Shown: piece after piece, positions 545 to 11,477 of the stretch
Layout: each line of letters opens with the position of its first letter
How positions within the stretch are numbered: position 1 is the first letter of the stretch
Assembly (NCBI GenBank): GCA_028279425.1
Contig: JANQNV010000323.1
Location: 1 to 64,000, forward strand
DNA from: Longimicrobiales bacterium
GTDB lineage: Bacteria; Gemmatimonadota; Gemmatimonadetes; Longimicrobiales; Gaopeijiaceae
Length of the DNA: 64,000 nt
Reading direction: 5' to 3'
Notes under the pieces: generated by a model
The model's database searches: none
What the model was told of the DNA's origin: nothing
The model's input: only the letters and a program-made list of their open reading frames with translations
Position numbers and translations under genes: made by a program

Positions 545-1084
545 CTACTCTTCGCCCTTTAGCCACAAGGGCAGCCCGGCCACCACCCAGACGGCCCTCT
601 CGGCCGCCTCGGCGAGTGCCTGATTGGCCCGGCCCTGCACGTCGCGGAACCAGCGCCCCATGGCGTGCGCCGGAACGACGCCCTGGCCCACCTCGTTGGA
701 GACGACGATCAGTTCACCGTCTCTCTCCGCTGCGGCTGCGAGCAACTCCTCCACCCGACGACGTCCCGCATCGTCGGCCTCCGCCTCGGTGGTCGCCTCG
801 GCCACCGGTCGACCCAGCAGCACGGTGAGGCAGTCCAGCACGACGACTCGGTGCCGGGCCGCTTCGAGGGCGGCGCCTGGACGCTGCGATTCCTCCACCG
901 TTTGCCACTCGACCGGGCGTTCCCCCCGATGCCGCTCGATACGCCGTCGCATTTCGTCGTCGTCGCCTGGCGGGTCGGCGGTGGCGATCCAGGTCACGTC
1001 GGTGCCCCCCATCCGGAGCGCCTCGTCGAGGGCCCAGCGGGTCTTCCCGCTTCGGGCTCCGCCGAGCACGAGGGTCAGACGCAC
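545..1084 (-). CDS. cobU: adenosylcobinamide kinase / adenosylcobinamide-phosphate guanylyltransferase
   Basis: CobU phosphorylates adenosylcobinamide and then transfers GMP to it, giving the AdoCbi-GDP substrate of nucleotide-loop assembly. The 179-residue length is typical. The P-loop GGARSGKT is at residues 8-15, followed by the family signatures VTWIATADP, RIERHRGERP, VVLDCLTVLL and a SNEVGQGVVP segment. The start is GTG at 1084, overlapping the end of cobQ by 10 bases. It is the last gene of the minus-strand cobalamin unit, so its expression probably depends on the btuF leader riboswitch, though an internal promoter cannot be excluded. Confidence 0.96.
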   Translation of the reverse strand: MRLTLVLGGARSGKTRWALDEALRMGGTDVTWIATADPPGDDDEMRRRIERHRGERPVEWQTVEESQRPGAALEAARHRVVVLDCLTVLLGRPVAEATTEAEADDAGRRRVEELLAAAAERDGELIVVSNEVGQGVVPAHAMGRWFRDVQGRANQALAEAAERAVWVVAGLPLWLKGEE

Positions 1085-2592
1085 GGCACCTCCACGAAAT
1101 CGAACACCCGTTCAATATCAAGATTGGACTCTACGTGGTCGGCGACGCGATCCAACTCGCGGGCCACCTCATCGCGCCAGGCCGCCGGCGCGTGTTCGGC
1201 CACGCCGAGCGCTCGCAGCCAGCCTCGGCGCACCGTGTCATCGCCGAAGATGCCGTGCAGGTATACGCCCCAGTGGCCACCTCGCCCGCGCCCGGGCGAC
1301 GAATGGCCCAACACCCGACCGTCGCCGGCGTCCACGAGCCACGGCGTGGCCTCCGAGCCACCCCGGGTACGTCCATGGTGAATCTCGTAGCCCTCGAGCT
1401 CGTGGCCGTGGGGCGCCCCTCCCGGCGCTGCACGACCGTCGTGGATCCGGGCGACCGTAAGCCGGGTGTCTTTCGTCGGTGCCATCGCGGTGTCGATGTC
1501 GAGCAGGCCGAGCCCGGCGACGGACCCCTCCTCTTCGACCCCCTCGGGGTCGGCCACGGACCGGCCCATCATCTGGTAGCCTCCACACAGGCCAACGACC
1601 GGGAGCCCGTCGACGGCCCACCCGCGGATCGCGTCGGCCAGACCCACCTCCCGCATCCACCTCAGGTCGGCGGCGGTGTTGCGCGATCCCGGAAGGATGA
1701 GGGCCGTGAGCCCGGAGAGCTCCCGCGGGCGGCGCACCCAGCGTAGCGCCAGCCCGGGCTCACGCCGCAACGGATCGAGGTCGTCGAGGTTGGAGGCCCG
1801 CGGGTATCCCACCACACCGACGCGGACTCGACTTCCTGCCTGCGATTCGCCGGCCAGCGTCGGTCCGCCGTCCTCTTCGGGGAGGAGATGCTGGATCCAG
1901 GGCACCACCCCGACCACGGGCACGCCCGTCTTCGCCTCCAGATCGCGGGGGGCCGGCGCCAGGAGGGCGGGATCGCCGCGAAAGCGGTTGAGGACGAAGC
2001 CCCGGAAGAGGCGACGGTCCGCCTCGTCGAGAAGGGCCCAGGTGCCGTACAGCGAGGCGAAGCTACCGCCCCGATCGATGTCGGAGACGAGCAGCACCGC
2101 GGCGTCGGTCCAACGGGCCACCGACATGTTCACGATGTCGCTGGCGCGAAGGTTGGTCTCAGCGGGGCTCCCCGCCCCCTCGGCGACCACCAGCTCGAAG
2201 CGGTTGCGCAGATCGGCGAGCGCCTCGGTCACCGTCGGCCACAGGAGCTCGCGGCGGCTGCGCCAGGGGCGTTCGGTGGCTTCGGCGTCGTGGCGCCCCA
2301 TGCGCACCACCTCCGACCGGGTATCGGCCATGGGCTTGAGCAGGACGGGATTCATGGCCACCTCGGGTTCCACGCCCGCCGCGATCGCCTGAAGCCATTG
2401 CGCCCGACCGATTTCACCTCCTTCGATCGTCACTGCCGCGTTGTTCGACATGTTCTGGGCCTTGAACGGCGCGACGGCCACTCCCCGGCGATGGGCGATC
2501 CGGCACAGCGCGGCGGTCAGCAGAGACTTGCCCACCCCCGAACCGGTCCCCTGAATCATGAGGACGGGGGCGGGCCGTGGAGCCGAGTTCAT
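1075..2592 (-). CDS. cobQ: cobyric acid synthase (glutamine-hydrolysing amidase)
   Basis: CobQ amidates the b, d, e and g side chains of adenosylcobyrinic acid a,c-diamide using ATP and glutamine. At 505 residues it is full length. The N-terminal dethiobiotin-synthetase-like ATPase begins with the P-loop GTGSGVGKS and FKAQNMSNNA. The C-terminal class I amidotransferase carries the nucleophile motif GLCGGYQMMG and a histidine in GVYLHGIF. The ATG start overlaps the cobT stop as ATGA, indicating translational coupling. Presence of CobQ implies that this organism makes or salvages incompletely amidated corrinoids, not only cobinamide. No corrin-ring genes lie in the window. Confidence 0.97.
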   Translation of the reverse strand: MNSAPRPAPVLMIQGTGSGVGKSLLTAALCRIAHRRGVAVAPFKAQNMSNNAAVTIEGGEIGRAQWLQAIAAGVEPEVAMNPVLLKPMADTRSEVVRMGRHDAEATERPWRSRRELLWPTVTEALADLRNRFELVVAEGAGSPAETNLRASDIVNMSVARWTDAAVLLVSDIDRGGSFASLYGTWALLDEADRRLFRGFVLNRFRGDPALLAPAPRDLEAKTGVPVVGVVPWIQHLLPEEDGGPTLAGESQAGSRVRVGVVGYPRASNLDDLDPLRREPGLALRWVRRPRELSGLTALILPGSRNTAADLRWMREVGLADAIRGWAVDGLPVVGLCGGYQMMGRSVADPEGVEEEGSVAGLGLLDIDTAMAPTKDTRLTVARIHDGRAAPGGAPHGHELEGYEIHHGRTRGGSEATPWLVDAGDGRVLGHSSPGRGRGGHWGVYLHGIFGDDTVRRGWLRALGVAEHAPAAWRDEVARELDRVADHVESNLDIERVFDFVEVPCV

Positions 2593-3710
2593 CCGCCGGC
2601 CCCGGTGGTGGTGGGGCCGCTGGTCGGTCCCCCGCTGGTTGGTCGCCCGCCGGTCTCTCTCCCGGCTGTCGGTCCGGAGACGCCTGCACCCGAGAAGGTG
2701 GCCATCTCACGCAGGATCGCGCCCGCCGCGTCGAGTACGGGCAGGGCGAGTACGGCTCCGGTGCCCTCGCCGAGCCGGAAACCCAGGTCGAGGACGGGGT
2801 CCAGCCCGAGTCCGGCGAGCGCCCGGTCGTGACCGGGCTCCGTGGAGCGGTGCCCGGCGAATAGGTAGTCGCGCACCTGCGGGGCGATGCCCACGGCCAC
2901 CAGAGCCGCCGCCGTCGAAATGAAGCCGTCGACGACCACGGGGACGCCTCGGCCGGCTGCGGCCAGGGTGACGCCCACGAGGCCGGCGATCTCGAGTCCT
3001 CCCACCTCGGCCAGGATGGCGGCCGCGCTGCGCCCGGGCCCCACGCGCTCGACGGCCGCTCGGACCACCGCCCGTTTCGCCTCGAGCGCCGCCCCCTCCA
3101 CCCCGGTACCGGGCCCGACGACCGCGTCGGACGGGCCGGGCGTCAGGAGCGCGGTCAGCGCGGCTGCGGCGGTGGAGTTGCCGATCCCCATCTCCCCGAG
3201 GCAGACGACGTCGCTCGGGTGTGCTTCGACGAGGGCCGCCCCGGCGGCGATGGCCGCATCGCGCCGTACGGCCGTCAGGGCCGCGCCGCTCGCCAGGTCG
3301 GCCGACCCCTGTGCGACACGCCGGTGCAGGACGCCGCGACCCAGCGGGCCGTCGTGCTTCACGCCGAGGTCGGCCACGACCACCTCACAGTCCACCGCAC
3401 GAGCGAATGCACATACGGCGGCGCCCCCCCCGGCGAGATTCCAGCACATCTGGGCCGTGACCTCGGCGGGATAGGCGCTGACGCCGCGGGCCGTTACGCC
3501 GTGGTCGGCGGCGAGCACGAACACGGTTCGTCGCGCGAGCCGGGGCGGCGGGTCGCCCACGATGCGGGCGAGTCGAACCGACACCTCCTCGAGCCGGCCG
3601 AGACTGCCGGGGGGTTTCGTCAGGTCGTCCAGATGCGCCCGCACCGCCGGGGCCTCCGGCCCGGTGGGCCGAGCGATGCGATCGACGAGTCGGTCGATGA
3701 TCGGGCTCAC
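2589..3710 (-). CDS. cobT: nicotinate-nucleotide--dimethylbenzimidazole phosphoribosyltransferase
   Basis: CobT makes alpha-ribazole 5'-phosphate, the lower ligand of cobalamin, from nicotinate mononucleotide and dimethylbenzimidazole or a related base. The 373-residue protein shows family motifs including KPPGSLGRLE near the N-terminus, VCLGEMGIGNSTAAAA in the middle, and DGFISTAAAL and the glycine-rich RLGEGTGAVLA towards the end. The last roughly 28 residues are a low-complexity Gly/Pro/Thr/Ser tail encoded by imperfect short repeats. The tail is not part of the usual fold and may be a recent extension. The start is GTG at 3710, ten bases after the fusion-gene stop. Confidence 0.96.
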   Translation of the reverse strand: MSPIIDRLVDRIARPTGPEAPAVRAHLDDLTKPPGSLGRLEEVSVRLARIVGDPPPRLARRTVFVLAADHGVTARGVSAYPAEVTAQMCWNLAGGGAAVCAFARAVDCEVVVADLGVKHDGPLGRGVLHRRVAQGSADLASGAALTAVRRDAAIAAGAALVEAHPSDVVCLGEMGIGNSTAAAALTALLTPGPSDAVVGPGTGVEGAALEAKRAVVRAAVERVGPGRSAAAILAEVGGLEIAGLVGVTLAAAGRGVPVVVDGFISTAAALVAVGIAPQVRDYLFAGHRSTEPGHDRALAGLGLDPVLDLGFRLGEGTGAVLALPVLDAAGAILREMATFSGAGVSGPTAGRETGGRPTSGGPTSGPTTTGAGG

Positions 3711-3720
3711 CGCGAGCCCC

Positions 3721-6249
3721 TCACAGTTCCAGCCCAGGCTGGGCGCCGATTCCCTGCGTGCGGTAGGGGTGCTTGATCTCGTTCATCTCCGTGACGAGGT
3801 CGGCGAACTCGATGAGTTCGGGGGTGGCTTTCCGGCCGGTGATCACCACGTGCGTGCCGTGGGGTCGGTCGCGGATCACCGGGAGCACCTCGTCGTGCTG
3901 CAGCCATCCGTAGGACAGGGCGTAGGTGAGTTCGTCGAAGATGACGATATCGTAGTCGCCCGAGTGCAAGGTCTCGCGACACCGCTCCCAACACTCCCGC
4001 GCCAGCGCCCGATCCTCTTCGATCCGCTCGCTCAACCAGGTGAAGCCCGCTCCCATCGGGATGATCTCCACCCCGAGCCGTTCGGCAGCGTAGTGCTCCC
4101 CCCGCTTGGATCCTTCGGTCTTGATGAACTGGAGCATGGCGACACTCATGTCGCGCCCCCGTGCGCGCAACAGGATGCCCAGGGCCGCTGTGGTCTTCCC
4201 CTTGCCGTTGCCCGTGTGCACCAAAACGAGCCCCTTTCGCTTCTCCCGGGGCGGGACCGGATACGGACCGGGTGTTCGTTGCTTCGGGACCGGTGCCTTC
4301 GGGTGGCGTGGCTGCTCGTCGGAACGGGCGTATGGGTCGGTCGAGCCGGCACCGGGTGCGTCTTCTGCGGAGGCGACGGGCGTCTCGGTATCCTCGAGGC
4401 CGTCGCTCGGAGAGGTGCGCTCGGCCGAGGCGGGGTCGGTAGTGTCGGGTGCTTCGGGTGTGTTCACGGTGTCATCGTCCAATGTGGGGGGGAGGCGGGT
4501 GTCGACCACGCGCCAGCGGGGCGGGGTGTTCCCATTCGCCTCTAGTGCGACCAACCCGCCGGGCCGCGGGACCCGGTCGTCGGGCGCCGCTTCGGCGTCG
4601 AGAAGGTGCGAGCGTAGGAGGCCCAGTGGTCCCCCATGGGCGACCACCACCAACGAGCTGTTCGGCTCCCGAGCCCTGTCCGTCCACCAGCGGTGAAGGC
4701 GATCCTGGAACTCCGAGAGGCGCTCCCCTCCGGGTGGAGGCGATCCCTCCGGGTCGTCGAGCCAGGCTCGGTAGGGTTCGACGCCGGCTGCCATGAGCTC
4801 CTGATGGGTCCGCAGCTCGAAGGCGCCGAAGTTGTATTCGCGCAGCCGCGCGTCGACGTAGACGACGGCCCCCGAGGCGACACGGGTCGCTGTCTGGAGT
4901 GCTCGCGTGAGGTCGCTGGACCAAACACGGGGAGGCCGCCATGCAGGCTCGCACTCGGGGTCGGGGGGAGCGAGGTCGACCGCGCGCGTGACCCGGGCTT
5001 CGAGGTCCGTCAGTTCGTCGGCAACCCCGGGGGCAAGAGGTAGATCGCTCCAGCCCTGGAAGCGTCGTTCCCGGTTGGCAAGGGTCGGGCCGTGCCGGAC
5101 GAGTACGAGGCCGCGGGGGCCTTCGGCCGGGTGCGGTACTGCGGGATTCTCCCGGTCGACGAGTTCGAGCGAATCGACCGCGGCCAGGAGCTGGGCTCGA
5201 GCCTGGGCCCCGGTTGCCGCGATACGTAGGTGATCCGGGAGCCCGAATGAGCCGGCGTGACGCACGCGAATCCCACGGCCGCGAAGAGCCCGATGGGTCG
5301 GCCCCGCGGCGTCGACACGGGCGAGGACGAACCCGGTTCGGGACGGCAGTACGCCCCACCCCCGCGCCGACAAGGCGAGGGCCAACTCTTCCCTGTCTGA
5401 GGCCAGACTCTGCCAACGCGCGCGGAGGCGTCGCTGTGCGCCTGCCTCGAGCGCGGCCTCGAGCGCGGCCATGGCGCTCGCCGAAACCGCCCATGGAGGA
5501 GCTGTTCGTCGGAGGGCGACCAGAATCGACTCGTCGCCCACGGCCGTAGCGATGCGGAGGCCCGGCACGGCGAGGTCCTTGGTGAAGGAGCGCAGATGTA
5601 GCACGCGTGGGTCGAGCGGTCGATGCGGTGGTGCCAGACGACCCATCGCGAAGGTCCGGTACGACTCGTCCAGAACCAGGAGGGTGCCGGCAGGCAGCCC
5701 ATCGGCCAATCGTTCCACCTGTGCATCGTCGAGCGCCTCGCCGGTGGGATTGTTGGGAGTGCACACGAACACGAGCGTCGGGCTCACGCGGCGGACCGTG
5801 CCGAGCACCGTCTCGAGGTCGAGGCGGAGATCCGGCGCGGTGGGTCGGACTTCGTAGACGGGGGCCCCGCAGAGGCGGGCGGCCCGGGCGTATTCGCCGA
5901 AGGTGGGACCTGCGATGACGACCGGTTTGTCCGGTCCCGCCCAGCACCGAGCGACCCGGTGAATCAGGTCGGCGGCGCCGGGCCCGAGCAAGATTCGCTT
6001 CGGGTCGAGATGCCACGCTTCCGCGAGGCGTCGCCGAGGCCGTCTCGCGTCGGGATCGGCGTAGCTCCCCAGCTCGGCGGTGGCCGCCGCGTCGGCGACG
6101 ACGGGGTCCGGCCCTCCAGGGAGCACATTGGTGCTCAGGTCGAGTATGACCGGCGGGAGTGACCCCTCGGGATCGTCTCCGGGGCCCCCGTGCGGCTCCA
6201 GGGGCACCCGAGCGAGGCAAGGGGCCGGGTTCGGGGGGTGCCAGCTCAT
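3721..6249 (-). CDS. cobD/cobC/cobO: triple fusion: threonine-phosphate decarboxylase (CobD-like) + alpha-ribazole phosphatase (CobC-like) + cob(I)alamin adenosyltransferase (CobO)
   Basis: This 842-residue protein joins three cobalamin enzymes. Residues about 30-365 are a fold-type I PLP enzyme of the HisC/CobD group, with TPNNPTGE (164-171), DESY (194-197) and the Schiff-base lysine in SFTKD (K224). It would decarboxylate threonine phosphate to aminopropanol phosphate. Residues about 378-585 are a histidine phosphatase with LVRHGPT (H386) and AHGG (537-540), expected to dephosphorylate alpha-ribazole phosphate. After a Pro/Glu/Thr/Ser-rich linker (about 586-668), residues 670-842 are a BtuR/CobO adenosyltransferase with P-loop GNGKGKTT (680-687) and FDELTYAL. 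No stop or frame break separates the parts. The ATG overlaps the cbiB stop as ATGA. Confidence 0.95.
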   Translation of the reverse strand: MSWHPPNPAPCLARVPLEPHGGPGDDPEGSLPPVILDLSTNVLPGGPDPVVADAAATAELGSYADPDARRPRRRLAEAWHLDPKRILLGPGAADLIHRVARCWAGPDKPVVIAGPTFGEYARAARLCGAPVYEVRPTAPDLRLDLETVLGTVRRVSPTLVFVCTPNNPTGEALDDAQVERLADGLPAGTLLVLDESYRTFAMGRLAPPHRPLDPRVLHLRSFTKDLAVPGLRIATAVGDESILVALRRTAPPWAVSASAMAALEAALEAGAQRRLRARWQSLASDREELALALSARGWGVLPSRTGFVLARVDAAGPTHRALRGRGIRVRHAGSFGLPDHLRIAATGAQARAQLLAAVDSLELVDRENPAVPHPAEGPRGLVLVRHGPTLANRERRFQGWSDLPLAPGVADELTDLEARVTRAVDLAPPDPECEPAWRPPRVWSSDLTRALQTATRVASGAVVYVDARLREYNFGAFELRTHQELMAAGVEPYRAWLDDPEGSPPPGGERLSEFQDRLHRWWTDRAREPNSSLVVVAHGGPLGLLRSHLLDAEAAPDDRVPRPGGLVALEANGNTPPRWRVVDTRLPPTLDDDTVNTPEAPDTTDPASAERTSPSDGLEDTETPVASAEDAPGAGSTDPYARSDEQPRHPKAPVPKQRTPGPYPVPPREKRKGLVLVHTGNGKGKTTAALGILLRARGRDMSVAMLQFIKTEGSKRGEHYAAERLGVEIIPMGAGFTWLSERIEEDRALARECWERCRETLHSGDYDIVIFDELTYALSYGWLQHDEVLPVIRDRPHGTHVVITGRKATPELIEFADLVTEMNEIKHPYRTQGIGAQPGLEL

Positions 6250-7211
6250 CTCGCCGCCTCACGCGTTTGGCGCCGAATCCGAGCGGCCGTCGCTCGCAGC
6301 GCGGCGCCGCCGAACAGTGCTCCGGCCCCCAACCATGCGGCCCGGCGCACGAGGGCGGCCGCCGAATCGATGTCCTGCGACTCCGGAGGTCTTCCCGCCG
6401 GGTTCAGTATGTAGGTTCCGGGCTTCTCCAGCCGCACGTCCAATGCGAGAGCGAGCGCGGCCATGGGCCAACCGGCGTTGGGGCCGGCCGCCCGCCGGGC
6501 CTGGCCGGGGAGCTGGGCCCAGCGCGGCGCGCCCGGGTCCGGGGACGCCACGCGCAGCAGCATCGCGGTGAGTCGGGCCGGGCCCAGGTTGAGCAGGTCG
6601 TCGGTCCGGGCCGCGACCTTTCCGTACCACTCGAAGGCGGTGGTGCGGTAGCCCACCATTGCGTCGGCCGTGTTCACGACTCGGTAGGCCCACGCCCCGG
6701 GAAGGCCCGCGGTGAGATAGGCGCACACGGGGGCGATCACGGAGTCGCTCAGATTCTCGCCCATCGATTCGATCGCCCCCGAGGCGACGAGCGACGGCGA
6801 AAGTTCGCTCGTGTCTCGGCTCACCAGATCCCAGGCGAGTCTTCGGCGGGCCTCGTCCAGGTGACCCTCGCGCAGTGCTGCCACGACTCCCCGGCCCGCC
6901 TCGAGAAGGGCGTCCAGGGCCAGCGCGGGGTGCAGCAGCAGGCTCTCGGTGAGGGCCGATGGGACTGCGGGCCGTGAACGGCCGTCGCCGTCCACGACAC
7001 GTGCCAGAGCCCGGGCCAGCGCAGCGACTCCGACGGCCACCCCTCCGACCGCCAGCCCGCCCTCCACGAGGGCTCCGATGGCCGAACGAGCGCGCCGGCG
7101 GTCGCGGGTGGCCCCGAGCAGAGAACCGATGCCCGCGACCGGATGTCGTCGGGGCTGTCCGAGCACGACATCCAGAACGAGCGCTGCCCCTACGATCACC
7201 GCCCGCCTCAT
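6246..7211 (-). CDS. cbiB: adenosylcobinamide-phosphate synthase (membrane)
   Basis: CbiB (CobD in aerobic-pathway nomenclature) attaches aminopropanol phosphate or aminopropanol to adenosylcobyric acid. The 321-residue protein is hydrophobic at its N-terminus (VIVGAALVLDVVLG) and carries family motifs HPVAGIG, SMGENLSDSVIAPV and a NTADAMVGYRT stretch. The reading frame is open far upstream, but the ATG at 7211 overlaps the btuD stop as ATGA and gives the family length, so I chose it. Its likely substrate is the product of the decarboxylase domain of the adjacent fusion protein. Confidence 0.95.
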   Translation of the reverse strand: MRRAVIVGAALVLDVVLGQPRRHPVAGIGSLLGATRDRRRARSAIGALVEGGLAVGGVAVGVAALARALARVVDGDGRSRPAVPSALTESLLLHPALALDALLEAGRGVVAALREGHLDEARRRLAWDLVSRDTSELSPSLVASGAIESMGENLSDSVIAPVCAYLTAGLPGAWAYRVVNTADAMVGYRTTAFEWYGKVAARTDDLLNLGPARLTAMLLRVASPDPGAPRWAQLPGQARRAAGPNAGWPMAALALALDVRLEKPGTYILNPAGRPPESQDIDSAAALVRRAAWLGAGALFGGAALRATAARIRRQTREAAR

Positions 7212-8050
7212 CGCGCCTCGGGGCGGAGGGCCAGTGCCTGCGGGGCACCGGTATCGGAGCCGGGGCCGGGATGCGACGCGATCCGCAAGGGCCAGTGGTA
7301 CACGGGCTCCAGCGCGTCGCGGCGAATCACGTCGGCCGGCGCTCCGTGCTTCACCCGCTGGCCCTCGTTCAGCAGGATCACTTCGTGGGCGTAGCGTGAA
7401 GCCAGATTCAAGTCGTGCGTGACCAGGAGCACCGCCAGCCCCTCGCCGCAGAGCTCGACGACCAGCTCGAACACCTGCATGCGGTAGCGAAGGTCGAGAC
7501 CCGCCGTGGGCTCGTCCAGGAGCAGGATCGGCGCCTCCTGAGCCAAGGCCCGTGCGATGCGTACGCGCTGACGTTCCCCGCCGGAGAGGCTGTCGAGCAG
7601 GCGGTCGGCGAACTCCAGGGCTCCGCAGCGCCGGAGGACCCGATCGACCACGCGCCGATCGTCTTCGCCGCTCCGCTGCCACGGACCGAGGTGAGGGTAT
7701 CGACCCATGGCGACGAGGTCGCGCACGTGCACGGGGAACGGCGAGGACTCGGACTGGGGCACCACGGCGATCAGGCGTGCTCGGGCTTGGTCGGTAAACG
7801 TGGTGAGCGCTCGCCCCGCGAGAGACACGCCGCCGGCATCCGGAAGCAGGGCTCCAGAGAGAAGGCGGAGCAGCGTCGACTTCCCCGCGCCGTTCGGCCC
7901 CAGAACCGCGGTGAGGCGTCCGGGTTCGACGCGGACGTCGACGTCTTCGACCGCCGCGCGGGCGGCACCCGGATGTGTGTACCGGAGCCCCTCTCCGGCC
8001 AGGGCATGCGGCGGAGTGTGGCCGGACGATCTCGGCGCCCCGGGGATCAC
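7208..8050 (-). CDS. btuD: vitamin B12 ABC transporter ATP-binding protein
   Basis: This is the ATPase of the corrinoid importer. It has Walker A GPNGAGKST (residues 51-59), Q-loop VVPQSE, signature LSGGERQR, Walker B ILLLDEPT and H-loop VTHDLN, in a 280-residue protein of FecE/BtuD type. The open frame extends much further upstream, but the GTG at 8050 overlaps the btuC stop as GTGA and places the ABC domain at the right distance, so the longer reading is a shadow of btuC. The C-terminal 30 residues after the ABC domain are Pro/Gly/Ala-rich and probably disordered. Confidence 0.94.
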   Translation of the reverse strand: MIPGAPRSSGHTPPHALAGEGLRYTHPGAARAAVEDVDVRVEPGRLTAVLGPNGAGKSTLLRLLSGALLPDAGGVSLAGRALTTFTDQARARLIAVVPQSESSPFPVHVRDLVAMGRYPHLGPWQRSGEDDRRVVDRVLRRCGALEFADRLLDSLSGGERQRVRIARALAQEAPILLLDEPTAGLDLRYRMQVFELVVELCGEGLAVLLVTHDLNLASRYAHEVILLNEGQRVKHGAPADVIRRDALEPVYHWPLRIASHPGPGSDTGAPQALALRPEAR

Positions 8051-9042
8051 GCCGCCCCCCGACGCACGAGCAGCGCCACGAAGAAAGGTACCCCCGCGAT
8101 CGCGGTGACCACCCCCGTGGGCAGTTCCGCTGGTGCGACGACGACCCGCGCGCCGGTGTCGGCCAGAAGCAGGAAGGTGGCCCCGGCGAGGAACGAGGCG
8201 GGGAGGAGCATCCGATGGTCGTTGCCCCAGGCGAGGCGCACCGCGTGCGGAACGATCAGCCCGACGAACCCGATGACCCCGCCAGCTGCCACGGCCGCTG
8301 CCACCATCAGGGAGGCGGCGAGGTAGGCGGTCAGCTTCACGCGGGGCACCGCGGCGCCCAGGTGGAAGGCGACGTCTTCGCCTCGCGAGAGAAGGTTGAA
8401 ACCCCGGGCCAGCGACAACACCGCCACGGCCGACGGCAACAAGAACGCGAGCAGGAGTCCATTGGACTGCCAGTCGGCCCCGGAAAGGTTGCCCATCATC
8501 CAGAACACCGCAGAACGGAAGGACTCCACGTCGGCCAAGGAGAGGAGGAGAAGGATCACCGCGTTGAAAAACGCGCCGGCGATCACTCCGGAGAGGATCA
8601 GGATGCGGGTGTCCATACCGCCCTGCGACGCCCGTCGGGCGATCTGAAGCACCAGCACCATGGCGGCCAGTGCGCCGACGAAGGCCCCGACGGGAAGGGT
8701 CCACGGCATCCGCGTACCCAGACCCGTCACCACGACTCCCACGGCGCCGACCGCTGCTCCCCCGGAAATCCCCAGCACGTACGGCTCGGCGAGTGGGTTG
8801 CGGAGGAGCGCCTGAAAGGTGCATCCGCTCAGCCCCAGAGCACCCCCGATCAGCGCGGCCATGACGGTGCGTGGCAGGCGAAGCTGCAGCAGGATGGCCT
8901 CCGACGCCGGGTCGAGTCCCGTGGTCGCCGCTCGCCACACGTCCAGGGCGCCGAGCCCGGATGCTCCGAACGAAACGGAGACGGCGACGGCCGCCACTCC
9001 CACCCCCACCAGGAGGGTGAGACGGCTGAGGGTGGTGGTCAT
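8047..9042 (-). CDS. btuC: vitamin B12 ABC transporter permease
   Basis: This 331-residue polytopic inner-membrane protein is of the FecCD/BtuC family, with hydrophobic segments spaced along its length. Landmarks are QLRLPRTVMAALIGGALGLSGC, FQALLRNPLAEPYVLGISGGAA, and GVIGFVGLIVPHAVR, the last being the loop expected to contact the ATPase. The ATG at 9042 overlaps the btuF stop as ATGA. The upstream extension of this frame towards 10065 is arginine-rich antisense shadow of btuF and was discarded. Confidence 0.95.
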   Translation of the reverse strand: MTTTLSRLTLLVGVGVAAVAVSVSFGASGLGALDVWRAATTGLDPASEAILLQLRLPRTVMAALIGGALGLSGCTFQALLRNPLAEPYVLGISGGAAVGAVGVVVTGLGTRMPWTLPVGAFVGALAAMVLVLQIARRASQGGMDTRILILSGVIAGAFFNAVILLLLSLADVESFRSAVFWMMGNLSGADWQSNGLLLAFLLPSAVAVLSLARGFNLLSRGEDVAFHLGAAVPRVKLTAYLAASLMVAAAVAAGGVIGFVGLIVPHAVRLAWGNDHRMLLPASFLAGATFLLLADTGARVVVAPAELPTGVVTAIAGVPFFVALLVRRGAA

Positions 9043-9974
9043 TCGGGACCGCGCTTCAGGATGTCGGACCCGTGGAGGAAACGGGCCATCCGGCGGGCCG
9101 CTTCGACTACTCGAGGTCCGGGGCGGTTGAAGAGATCGCCGTCCACCACCAGGTAGCGTCTCTCCTGAATCGCCCGGACGTCTCTCCACCCCACGCCTCG
9201 CAGCCAGGGCGCCTCGACCGAGCCTCCCTCGTGGCGGGCGATCACCACGGCCCGGGGCTGTCGATGCACGATCTCCTCGAGCGAAACCTGGGGCCATGCG
9301 GTGGGTGCGTCGTCGAAGACGTTCCGACCACCGGCCCGTTCGATGACCTCGTCGATGAAGGTGCCGGGGCCGGTCGTCTGAGGCGGGTCGTGCCACACCG
9401 AGTAGTAGACGTCGACCACCGGGCGCCCCGCTACAGCGGCCGCGACCCGATCGAGATCTGCGTCGAGAGAGTCGACGAGGGCCTCCGCCTTTTCGTCCCT
9501 TCCGAGCAGCGTTCCCAGTCGATGTATGTGGCTGCGCAGGTCGGCGATCGTCTCGATGTCGGCGCGATAGACGGGGATCCCCAGCGCCTCGATGCGGTCG
9601 GCGACGCTGCGCTGTCCGACGTCGACGAAGGCCACGACGAGATCCGGACGCATCCGGGCCAGCGCCTCGACATTGGGATTCAGCGTGCCGCCGAGCGCGG
9701 GCAGTTCGGCGAGTTCCGGCTGACGGTCGAAGCGGGTTCGGGCAATCAGCACGGCAGGGTCCAGCGCCGCGATCGTCTCGGTGACGGAAGGAATCACCGA
9801 GAAGACTCGTCGGGCCGGGGCCGCCAGCGCGACGGTTCGACCGGCGTCGTCCGCAACGACGATCGCTGAGACGGCGCCGGAGTCCGCGCTGCCGCACGCG
9901 ACCGGGCATAGGACGAGGCTCACGACGACGAGTCCCCGAACGGCGCACCGCAGGAATGGCATGTGCTCGGACAT
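9039..9974 (-). CDS. btuF: corrinoid-binding lipoprotein / periplasmic binding protein
   Basis: BtuF captures corrinoid in the periplasm for BtuCD. The 311-residue product begins with a signal sequence ending in LVLCPVACGS, a lipobox, so it is probably membrane-anchored. The class III binding-protein fold follows, with RVFSVIPSVTETIAAL at the start, LARMRPDLVVAF in lobe one and GWRDVRAIQERRYLVVDGDLF near the end. I chose the ATG at 9974 because a strong purine tract (GGGAGGGGG) lies about eight bases upstream. An in-frame ATG at 9962 is an alternative. It is the first gene of the unit and sits behind a cobalamin riboswitch. Confidence 0.94.
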   Translation of the reverse strand: MSEHMPFLRCAVRGLVVVSLVLCPVACGSADSGAVSAIVVADDAGRTVALAAPARRVFSVIPSVTETIAALDPAVLIARTRFDRQPELAELPALGGTLNPNVEALARMRPDLVVAFVDVGQRSVADRIEALGIPVYRADIETIADLRSHIHRLGTLLGRDEKAEALVDSLDADLDRVAAAVAGRPVVDVYYSVWHDPPQTTGPGTFIDEVIERAGGRNVFDDAPTAWPQVSLEEIVHRQPRAVVIARHEGGSVEAPWLRGVGWRDVRAIQERRYLVVDGDLFNRPGPRVVEAARRMARFLHGSDILKRGPE

Positions 9975-10011
9975 GCTTCCGACCCCCTCCCTCGAAGGAT
10001 CGTGATGGTCC

Positions 10012-10174
10012 GAGGGGGCCGCGTCTCCTGGCTCGAGGCGACACCGCTCGCCTTCCCGGGGACACGATCTCCCCAGTGGCGTCATCGAGCGGGTCACACC
10101 GGAGGGTCGTCCTCCGGGCCTCCTACAGTGGCGGGGCCGCGCCGGCGTTCGACCGGTCTTCCGTCCGCCCCCTC
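10012..10174 (-). promoter_or_regulatory. cobalamin riboswitch upstream of btuF
   Basis: On the minus strand this holds the cobalamin-riboswitch core in order: GCGCGGCCCCGCCACTGT (ending near 10120), GACGCCACTGGGG (about 10071-10083), CCCCGGGAAGG, and the B12 box GAGCCAGGAGAC (about 10024-10035). Outer helix P1 can form between GAGGGGGC (10174-10167) and GCCCCCTC (10019-10012). The 3' edge lies 37 bases from the btuF start, whose ribosome-binding site follows directly. The 5' third overlaps the last codons and stop of the pduX-like gene. Such elements normally repress uptake and synthesis genes when adenosylcobalamin is bound. Confidence 0.9.
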
Positions 10175-11154
10175 TCTTCTGGCGGCAACATGATCACGTC
10201 CCACGGCGAGGGCAAGACGGGCGACGAGACGATTCCCGTAGCGTGGAGGGTCGCGGCCATCACCTCGACCGGGCGGCCGGCGAGCTGCCAGATACCCCGG
10301 ATCGCAGCCGGGTCCGGCCGTTCCCCCGGCGGGTACATCAGGCTCCAGACCGTACCGGAATGGGCCCTGAGCCAACCCAGGGCCGACGTGGCTTCAGCTG
10401 CGCGTACGATGGGTGGGGGGGCGGGGGGTGCACCCAGGTGTCGTGCAAGCTCCGCACTCGATCGCGCAGCACGGGCCAGCCCCTCGAGATCGCCCAGCCG
10501 GATCGCCGTCGCGCAGAGCTCGAAGGCGCGCCTCCATCCCTCCACAGCCACGGCGGGGAGCCGACGGGGGAGTCGGCGGTTGAAGCGCTGCGTGTCGACC
10601 GCCCCGGGAGGCCGACAGATGACCAGGTCGAGAGAAGGGTGCGGGCCGAGAGGTTCGCGCACGGCTCCCCGCCGATGGTCGAACAGAACGAGACCGGGGA
10701 GTACGGTGCCGTTCGTAGGTTCGACCGACAGGCAGGTTTCGATGGCCACGTCCTCGGGGGACTCCGCCCCCAGGGCCGCGGCGAGCGCGGCAGAGGCGGC
10801 AGCGAGATCGGCTGTACTGCTTCCCATTCCCGCTCCGCGGTGCAGGCGATCGCCACCTACGGCCATCGCGGGCACCGGGCCCGTCCACCCTTCGGCCACC
10901 CGAGCGAGACCCGCCTTCACCTTCCGCCAACTCGGGTGGACTCCGTGGGCGGACGGACTCACCGCGTGCCAGCCGCGGTCCCCCAATGCCGGTGCATGCG
11001 CGGAACTCGGACGCTCGAACGGGCCCCGCTGCGCGACTTCCGACCAGCGCACGCGATTGATCGGAGCGGCCACCTGGAGCCACCGCCCCTTCCAAACGCC
11101 TTGCACGAATTCGCCGGCGCTGGCGGGGACGGACCATCGAAGGGGCTCGCTCAT
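10123..11154 (-). CDS. pduX: GHMP-family kinase, PduX-like L-threonine kinase
   Basis: This 343-residue GHMP kinase has the ATP-binding motif GAGMGSSTADLAAA in its first half and PSWRKVKAG before it. In Salmonella, PduX makes L-threonine phosphate for the aminopropanol arm of cobalamin. The CobD-like decarboxylase encoded next door would use that product, which favours this role over other GHMP functions. The ATG at 11154 (MSEPLRW) aligns with the start of the fold. Its last 17 codons and TAG stop lie inside the btuF riboswitch. The gene is divergent from the btuB leader. Confidence 0.82.
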   Translation of the reverse strand: MSEPLRWSVPASAGEFVQGVWKGRWLQVAAPINRVRWSEVAQRGPFERPSSAHAPALGDRGWHAVSPSAHGVHPSWRKVKAGLARVAEGWTGPVPAMAVGGDRLHRGAGMGSSTADLAAASAALAAALGAESPEDVAIETCLSVEPTNGTVLPGLVLFDHRRGAVREPLGPHPSLDLVICRPPGAVDTQRFNRRLPRRLPAVAVEGWRRAFELCATAIRLGDLEGLARAARSSAELARHLGAPPAPPPIVRAAEATSALGWLRAHSGTVWSLMYPPGERPDPAAIRGIWQLAGRPVEVMAATLHATGIVSSPVLPSPWDVIMLPPEERGRTEDRSNAGAAPPL

Positions 11155-11286
11155 GAAGGCGTCCGGAACGTGCGGATTCTCAGTGGTTGCGGTGGCCGGG
11201 CGGGGCCGACGGACGAGCATCGCCGGCGTGCTCCCACGGGGCAAGAAGGCATCGCACTTGCGCCCACACGCACTCCACCGCTACCT

Positions 11287-11477
11287 GTGCGGCGTCGGAA
11301 AAAAAGACGCAGGGGCACTCGGAAGCCGGTGGAAATCCGGCGCGGCCCAGCCACTGTGACGAGGTGTGCGATTCGATGCGGATCGCACTGCTTCCGCCCT
11401 GGAGCGCCACTGGGACTTCGGTCCTGGGAAGGCCGGCGGAAGGTGCCTCCAGCCAGGAGACCTCTCCTGCGTCGCAC
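11287..11477 (+). promoter_or_regulatory. cobalamin riboswitch upstream of btuB
   Basis: The leader contains a textbook cobalamin aptamer: GGAAGCCGGTGGAAATCCGG (11321-11340), GCGGCCCAGCCACTGTGA, GCGCCACTGGG (11404-11414), CCTGGGAAGG and the B12 box CCAGCCAGGAGACCT (about 11449-11463). Outer helix P1 pairs GTGCGGCG (11287-11294) with CGTCGCAC (11470-11477), with one G-U pair. It is followed by about 100 bases of leader containing further hairpins before btuB. It should lower expression of btuB and the BtuG-like gene when cobalamin is abundant. The transcription start must lie upstream, in the gap divergent from pduX. Confidence 0.95.

Follow-up and report, generated by a model that had tools for sequence, protein, structure and literature searches.

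A predicted CobD-CobC-CobO fusion in the corrinoid salvage operon of a Longimicrobiales bacterium, probably derived from three adjacent genes

CobD supplies CbiB with aminopropanol phosphate, CobO adenosylates the corrinoid, and CobC takes off a phosphate in the assembly of the nucleotide loop. Known protein fusions involving these enzymes include mycobacterial RNase HI-CobC (MSMEG_4305/Rv2228c), in which the fused CobC domain and its partner work independently, and which its authors ascribe most probably to drift (PMC7466739). For other bacteria, a multienzyme complex of the late steps that includes CbiB, CobS and CobC and is anchored in the membrane has been put forward (PMC8749415).

The window analyzed here, a 64,000-nucleotide stretch from a draft genome of a Longimicrobiales bacterium (339 contigs totaling 5.4 Mb, with a completeness of 89.8% and a contamination of 5.8%), contains one ORF that combines all three domains (Table 1). 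An earlier note on this DNA, which gave no strand for 3721-6249, had described a single uninterrupted frame with CobD-, CobC- and CobO-like domains. This is confirmed on the minus strand, while plus-strand reading of the same interval is interrupted by stops. Three Pfam families, Aminotran_1_2 (residues 35-352, E 2e-48), His_Phos_1 (residues 381-556, E 2e-32) and CobA_CobO_BtuR (residues 672-841, E 1e-61), are all found above their curated cut-offs. The respective motifs are SFTK with K224, RHG at 385-387 with H386, and P-loop GNGKGKTT at 680-687, with all residue numbers as the note had given them. In GC-rich DNA of this kind, an open frame by itself is little evidence, and chance open frames do occur: in two other genomes (G181 and G365), stop-free frames of 972-1120 aa overlap a domain that is coded in another frame. 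A chance origin of the fused ORF was nevertheless rejected, because three domains with E-values of about 1e-32 or better share one frame. The coding signal through both junctions favors the ORF's own frame, except in a 24-residue arm of CobO (see below), which scores poorly in all frames once the training set excludes the ORF.

The ORF belongs to a cobalamin-riboswitch-controlled salvage operon, btuFCD-cbiB-(cobD-cobC-cobO)-cobT-cobQ-cobU. Downstream of it are cobT, cobQ and cobU; upstream are cbiB, btuD, btuC, btuF and a gene for a GHMP-kinase-like protein, followed by a divergent gene for a BtuB-like receptor with a riboswitch of its own. CobS is encoded on another contig of the same genome, and a search of the genome for CbiC found none, which together fits corrinoid salvage. 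The GHMP-kinase-like protein is also found beside btuF in several relatives and is barely above the Pfam cut-off; it is a candidate L-threonine kinase that might play the role of PduX and supply the substrate of CobD, though PduX identity found no family-level support and no NCBIfam match.

Table 1. Location of the fused ORF, its parts and its neighbors, and of related features in other genomes (locus handles L precede the coordinates of the latter)
Feature	Coordinates	Strand	Basis or remark
Fused CobD-CobC-CobO ORF	3721..6249	(-)	842 aa, ATG to TGA; Pfam domains
CobD-like PLP domain, residues 1-360 (K224)	5170..6249	(-)	Pfam, NCBIfam, AlphaFold
Linker 1, residues 361-379, former cobD/cobC boundary	5113..5169	(-)	Codon scan, models
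CobC-like histidine phosphatase domain, residues 380-583 (R385, H386, E471, H538)	4501..5112	(-)	Pfam, NCBIfam, AlphaFold, alignment
Linker 2, residues 584-671	4237..4500	(-)	Alignment with CobO of relatives
C7 run (G7 on plus strand)	4486..4492	(-)	CobC-CobO continuity depends on the run
GTGA: GTG595 in CobO frame overlapping next-frame TGA	4464..4467	(-)	Possible remnant of cobC/cobO stop-start overlap
CobO corrinoid adenosyltransferase domain, residues 672-841 (P-loop 680-687)	3727..4236	(-)	Pfam, NCBIfam
cobU	545..1084	(-)	Pfam CobU
cobQ (cobyric acid synthase)	1075..2592	(-)	NCBIfam, above cut-off
cobT	2589..3710	(-)	NCBIfam, above cut-off
ORF holding cbiB	6246..7682	(-)	Domain from about residue 160; true start probably internal
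btuF, btuC, btuD transporter genes	7208..10097	(-)	
Cobalamin riboswitch, head of btuF-to-cobU series	10023..10162	(-)	Rfam RF00174, 52.4 bits, cut-off 31.5
GHMP-kinase-like protein	10123-11244	(-)	Pfam
Second cobalamin riboswitch, ahead of BtuB-like receptor gene	11321-11461	(+)	
CobC-like phosphatase-CobT ORFs, 564-580 aa	L168:4973-6664; L169:7452-9149; L170:8473-10212; L175:6812-8551	(-); (+); (+); (+)	Four class-level relatives, one genus
Second CobC-like phosphatase	L142:1518-2147; L143:6622-7209; L146:10489-11193; L148:10392-10994	(-); (-); (+); (+)	In or near cob clusters
Two CobD-CobC gene pairs	L146:3906-5575; L146:16749-18394		One genome

The best-scoring family of the first domain is TIGR01140, with 195.6 bits against an equivalog cut-off of 290.55, while TIGR01141 (HisC) gives 174.7 bits against 276.55; both cut-offs are missed, and the CobD proteins of operon relatives also fall below that of TIGR01140. 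The AlphaFold model of the domain (models were built for the CobD and CobC domains, from small alignments of operon relatives) has a mean pLDDT of 90.6, with the final helix ending at residue 360. It has fold type I and matches 1lc5/1lc8 at TM 0.80-0.82, and K224, the PLP-binding lysine, is nearly invariant among operon homologs. Structures of both HisC and CobD are matched, with HisC ranked first, and the fold therefore does not discriminate between the two. Most of the nearest matches among solved structures, by sequence and by fold, are HisC, and this, along with the missed TIGR01140 cut-off, would be expected if domain 1 were a histidinol-phosphate aminotransferase. We regard this as very improbable, given the order of the two family scores, the presence of two other genes in this genome that are better candidates for HisC (237 and 235 bits), the position adjoining cbiB, which is conserved in relatives, and the cobalamin riboswitch at the operon. 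The family scores, the genomic HisC candidates and the operon thus favor CobD, and the preference for the decarboxylase voiced in the earlier note is upheld.

The model of the CobC-like domain (mean pLDDT 83.7, with disordered ends) has E. coli and Shigella CobC as its best PDB matches, E. coli CobC 6e4b being the top one. R385, H386 and H538 occupy invariant alignment columns, so that both the RHG motif and the second catalytic His are present. TIGR03162 is the best model, at 104.7 bits, and misses its equivalog cut-off of 162.9, which the ortholog in relative G057 passes with 163.3 bits. The CobO domain scores above both of its cut-offs (PF02572, 208.5 vs 25.7 bits; TIGR00708, 189.8 vs 167.75), and its P-loop aligns with that of Salmonella CobA, 1g5r. 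The segment between these two domains, approximately residues 584-671, has a high content of P, D, T, A and E. Its last 24 residues (648-671, positions 4237-4308) correspond to an arm, HPKAPVPKxRTPGPYPxPP, that is conserved at the N-terminus of CobO from relatives; by this alignment, the long linker is in part ancestral, the arm being CobO's own and no new linker.

The search at the order level found the cluster, whole or in part, in 14 further genomes; in five other species of the same genus that were examined, the cluster is absent. In relatives, cobD, cobC and cobO are separate ORFs: two genomes (G107 and G020) have nearly the whole gene order, and four (G105, G019, G057 and G147) have parts of it. 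In the four whose junctions were inspected (G019, G020, G105 and G107), stop and start codons overlap by 4 bp (ATGA or GTGA) at both junctions, and the genes are in different frames. G069, G073 and G074, where CobD is 53-55% identical and CobO, in G069 and G074, 77-78% identical, lack the cobC that would lie between cobD and cobO; in four class-level relatives (G157, G160, G178 and G241), too, CobO comes after CobD and no CobC match intervenes. Some genomes have additional copies: a second CobC-like phosphatase, besides the one next to CobD, is found in or near four cob clusters and sits just downstream of CobO in three of them (L142, L143 and L146), and in one genome the CobD-CobC gene pair occurs twice, at a distance of about 11 kb.

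The triple fusion was not seen outside the window in 154 order-level, 394 class-level and 395 phylum-level genomes (overlapping sets, which do not amount to an exhaustive architecture search). Among 300 ORFs carrying a CobD, CobC or CobO domain, the window ORF is the only one with more than one of these kinds, and none of 72,556 plasmid records covers 80% of the fused-ORF query. A long match in a Thiobacillus bin (L037) was rejected, as CobO there lies upstream of a distant CobD-like match and there is no fusion. A literature search that covered few subscription journals yielded no paper on this architecture. The triple arrangement, which had been unfamiliar to the author of the earlier note, is thus unseen elsewhere within these searches. 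The note had also stressed that three non-consecutive steps are combined; the domain identities behind this statement hold, but the genes are adjacent in a conserved operon and separate in every relative examined. This adjacency explains the combination of domains without a scaffold near CbiB.

The two joins differ in their robustness. At the CobD-CobC junction, the stretch of about 55 codons from 330 to 385 has no ATG, GTG or TTG and no stops in any frame, and the start codon is gone at the site where cobC of relatives begins. Any one-base deletion or C insertion at codons 346-384 creates no stop ahead of the CobC domain, the next stop being at codon 412 or 592. With the boundary codons wholly lost and no tested indel restoring them, this join cannot be one sequencing slip; a single indel as its origin was rejected, since no tested one-base change restores a separate cobD. 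The cobD/cobC boundary is completely lost, and the join is secure.

The CobC-CobO join, on the other hand, is fragile and provisional, as it depends on one homopolymer base. In the model, residue 583 or thereabouts is the last of the CobC fold, the C7 run follows directly after the last CobC strand, and GTGA lies 18 bases further. When one C is removed from C7, cobC terminates after 594 residues at a TGA that overlaps GTG in the CobO frame, the arrangement seen in all four inspected relatives. One base thus suffices to separate cobC from cobO, and it is conceivable, though on balance unlikely, that only CobD and CobC are fused, that CobO starts separately from GTG595, and that the second join is a one-base indel in C7 arising from sequencing, assembly or strain-level variation. 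Against this, other runs of 7-8 bases in the window keep phase within coding frames, including C8 of the intact cobT, and in this DNA, chance alone would give about 0.6 in-frame RTGA per 62 codons, so that the GTGA may be a remnant of the cobC/cobO overlap or, alternatively, a matter of chance. Our judgement, which is not a computed value, is that the triple ORF is rather likely to be real in this genome; that CobC and CobO are joined in the cell, we infer.

The explanation that we consider best, and probably correct, is that three neighboring genes of a riboswitch-controlled corrinoid salvage operon were fused in this lineage, with each domain working as it does when separate. Ancestral cobD, cobC and cobO would have been adjacent with translational overlaps, and loss of the boundaries would have produced one ORF. 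The first domain is predicted to decarboxylate L-threonine phosphate to aminopropanol phosphate for CbiB, the second to dephosphorylate alpha-ribazole-5'-phosphate or adenosylcobalamin-5'-phosphate, and the third to adenosylate corrinoids; the domains would be independent, held together by two flexible linkers, one of about 19 and one of about 88 residues. This explanation is favored because relatives keep the same order of separate genes with overlaps at both junctions, because neither start nor stop remains across CobD-CobC, and because the active-site motifs are kept, the domain models are confident, and riboswitches and salvage profile are in agreement; the mycobacterial protein gives a precedent for a fusion with an independent CobC domain (PMC7466739). 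Counting against it are reliance on one draft genome, the single C7 base at the second join, and CobD and CobC scores below the NCBIfam equivalog cut-offs. The earlier note had suggested a scaffold channeling the precursors of both arms to CbiB. The position of cbiB as the next gene upstream and the late-step complex proposed in other bacteria (PMC8749415) would suit selection for such a role, but the fusion is kept in no relative, some near relatives have CobD and CobO with no CobC between them, and adjacency of the genes already accounts for the fusion; a selected scaffold is not needed to explain it and seems highly unlikely. An ordinary local gene fusion, of the drift type, of working enzymes on flexible linkers is most likely.

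Taken together, the ORF can be expected, with reasonable though incomplete assurance, to encode a genuine single polypeptide with predicted CobD, CobC and CobO activities, formed in one lineage by the joining of neighboring genes and so far known from one genome. If real in the cell, it would add an architecture that unites three known B12 enzymes, and would clearly illustrate how genes with ATGA overlaps became one protein while relatives still have them unfused. The fusion could offer a natural way to test the multienzyme complex proposed for the late steps of the B12 pathway; the pathway itself is unchanged.

The known systems resemble this protein to different degrees. RNase HI-CobC has a CobC domain tied by a variable linker to another enzyme, as here, but the partner is RNase HI, there are two domains, and the fusion is conserved across Actinomycetales. 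Bifunctional CobBC (NCBIfam NF053748) has a CobD/HisC-like domain, there named CobC, fused to another B12 enzyme; this partner, however, is CobB and N-terminal, and the window ORF scores 133 bits against a cut-off of 950. Four class-level relatives (G181, G244, G307 and G365) have a CobC-like domain joined to the next cob gene, although it is a different CobC paralog and the partner is CobT. As this fusion combines consecutive steps and recurs in four genomes, it may perhaps be the better one to study. Two tandem CobO genes lie upstream of the CobC-CobT ORF in L168, L169, L170 and L175. The order-level relatives G105, G107, G019 and G020 share domains, domain order and neighbors with the window operon, and differ from it in having three genes with 4-bp overlaps where the window has one ORF.
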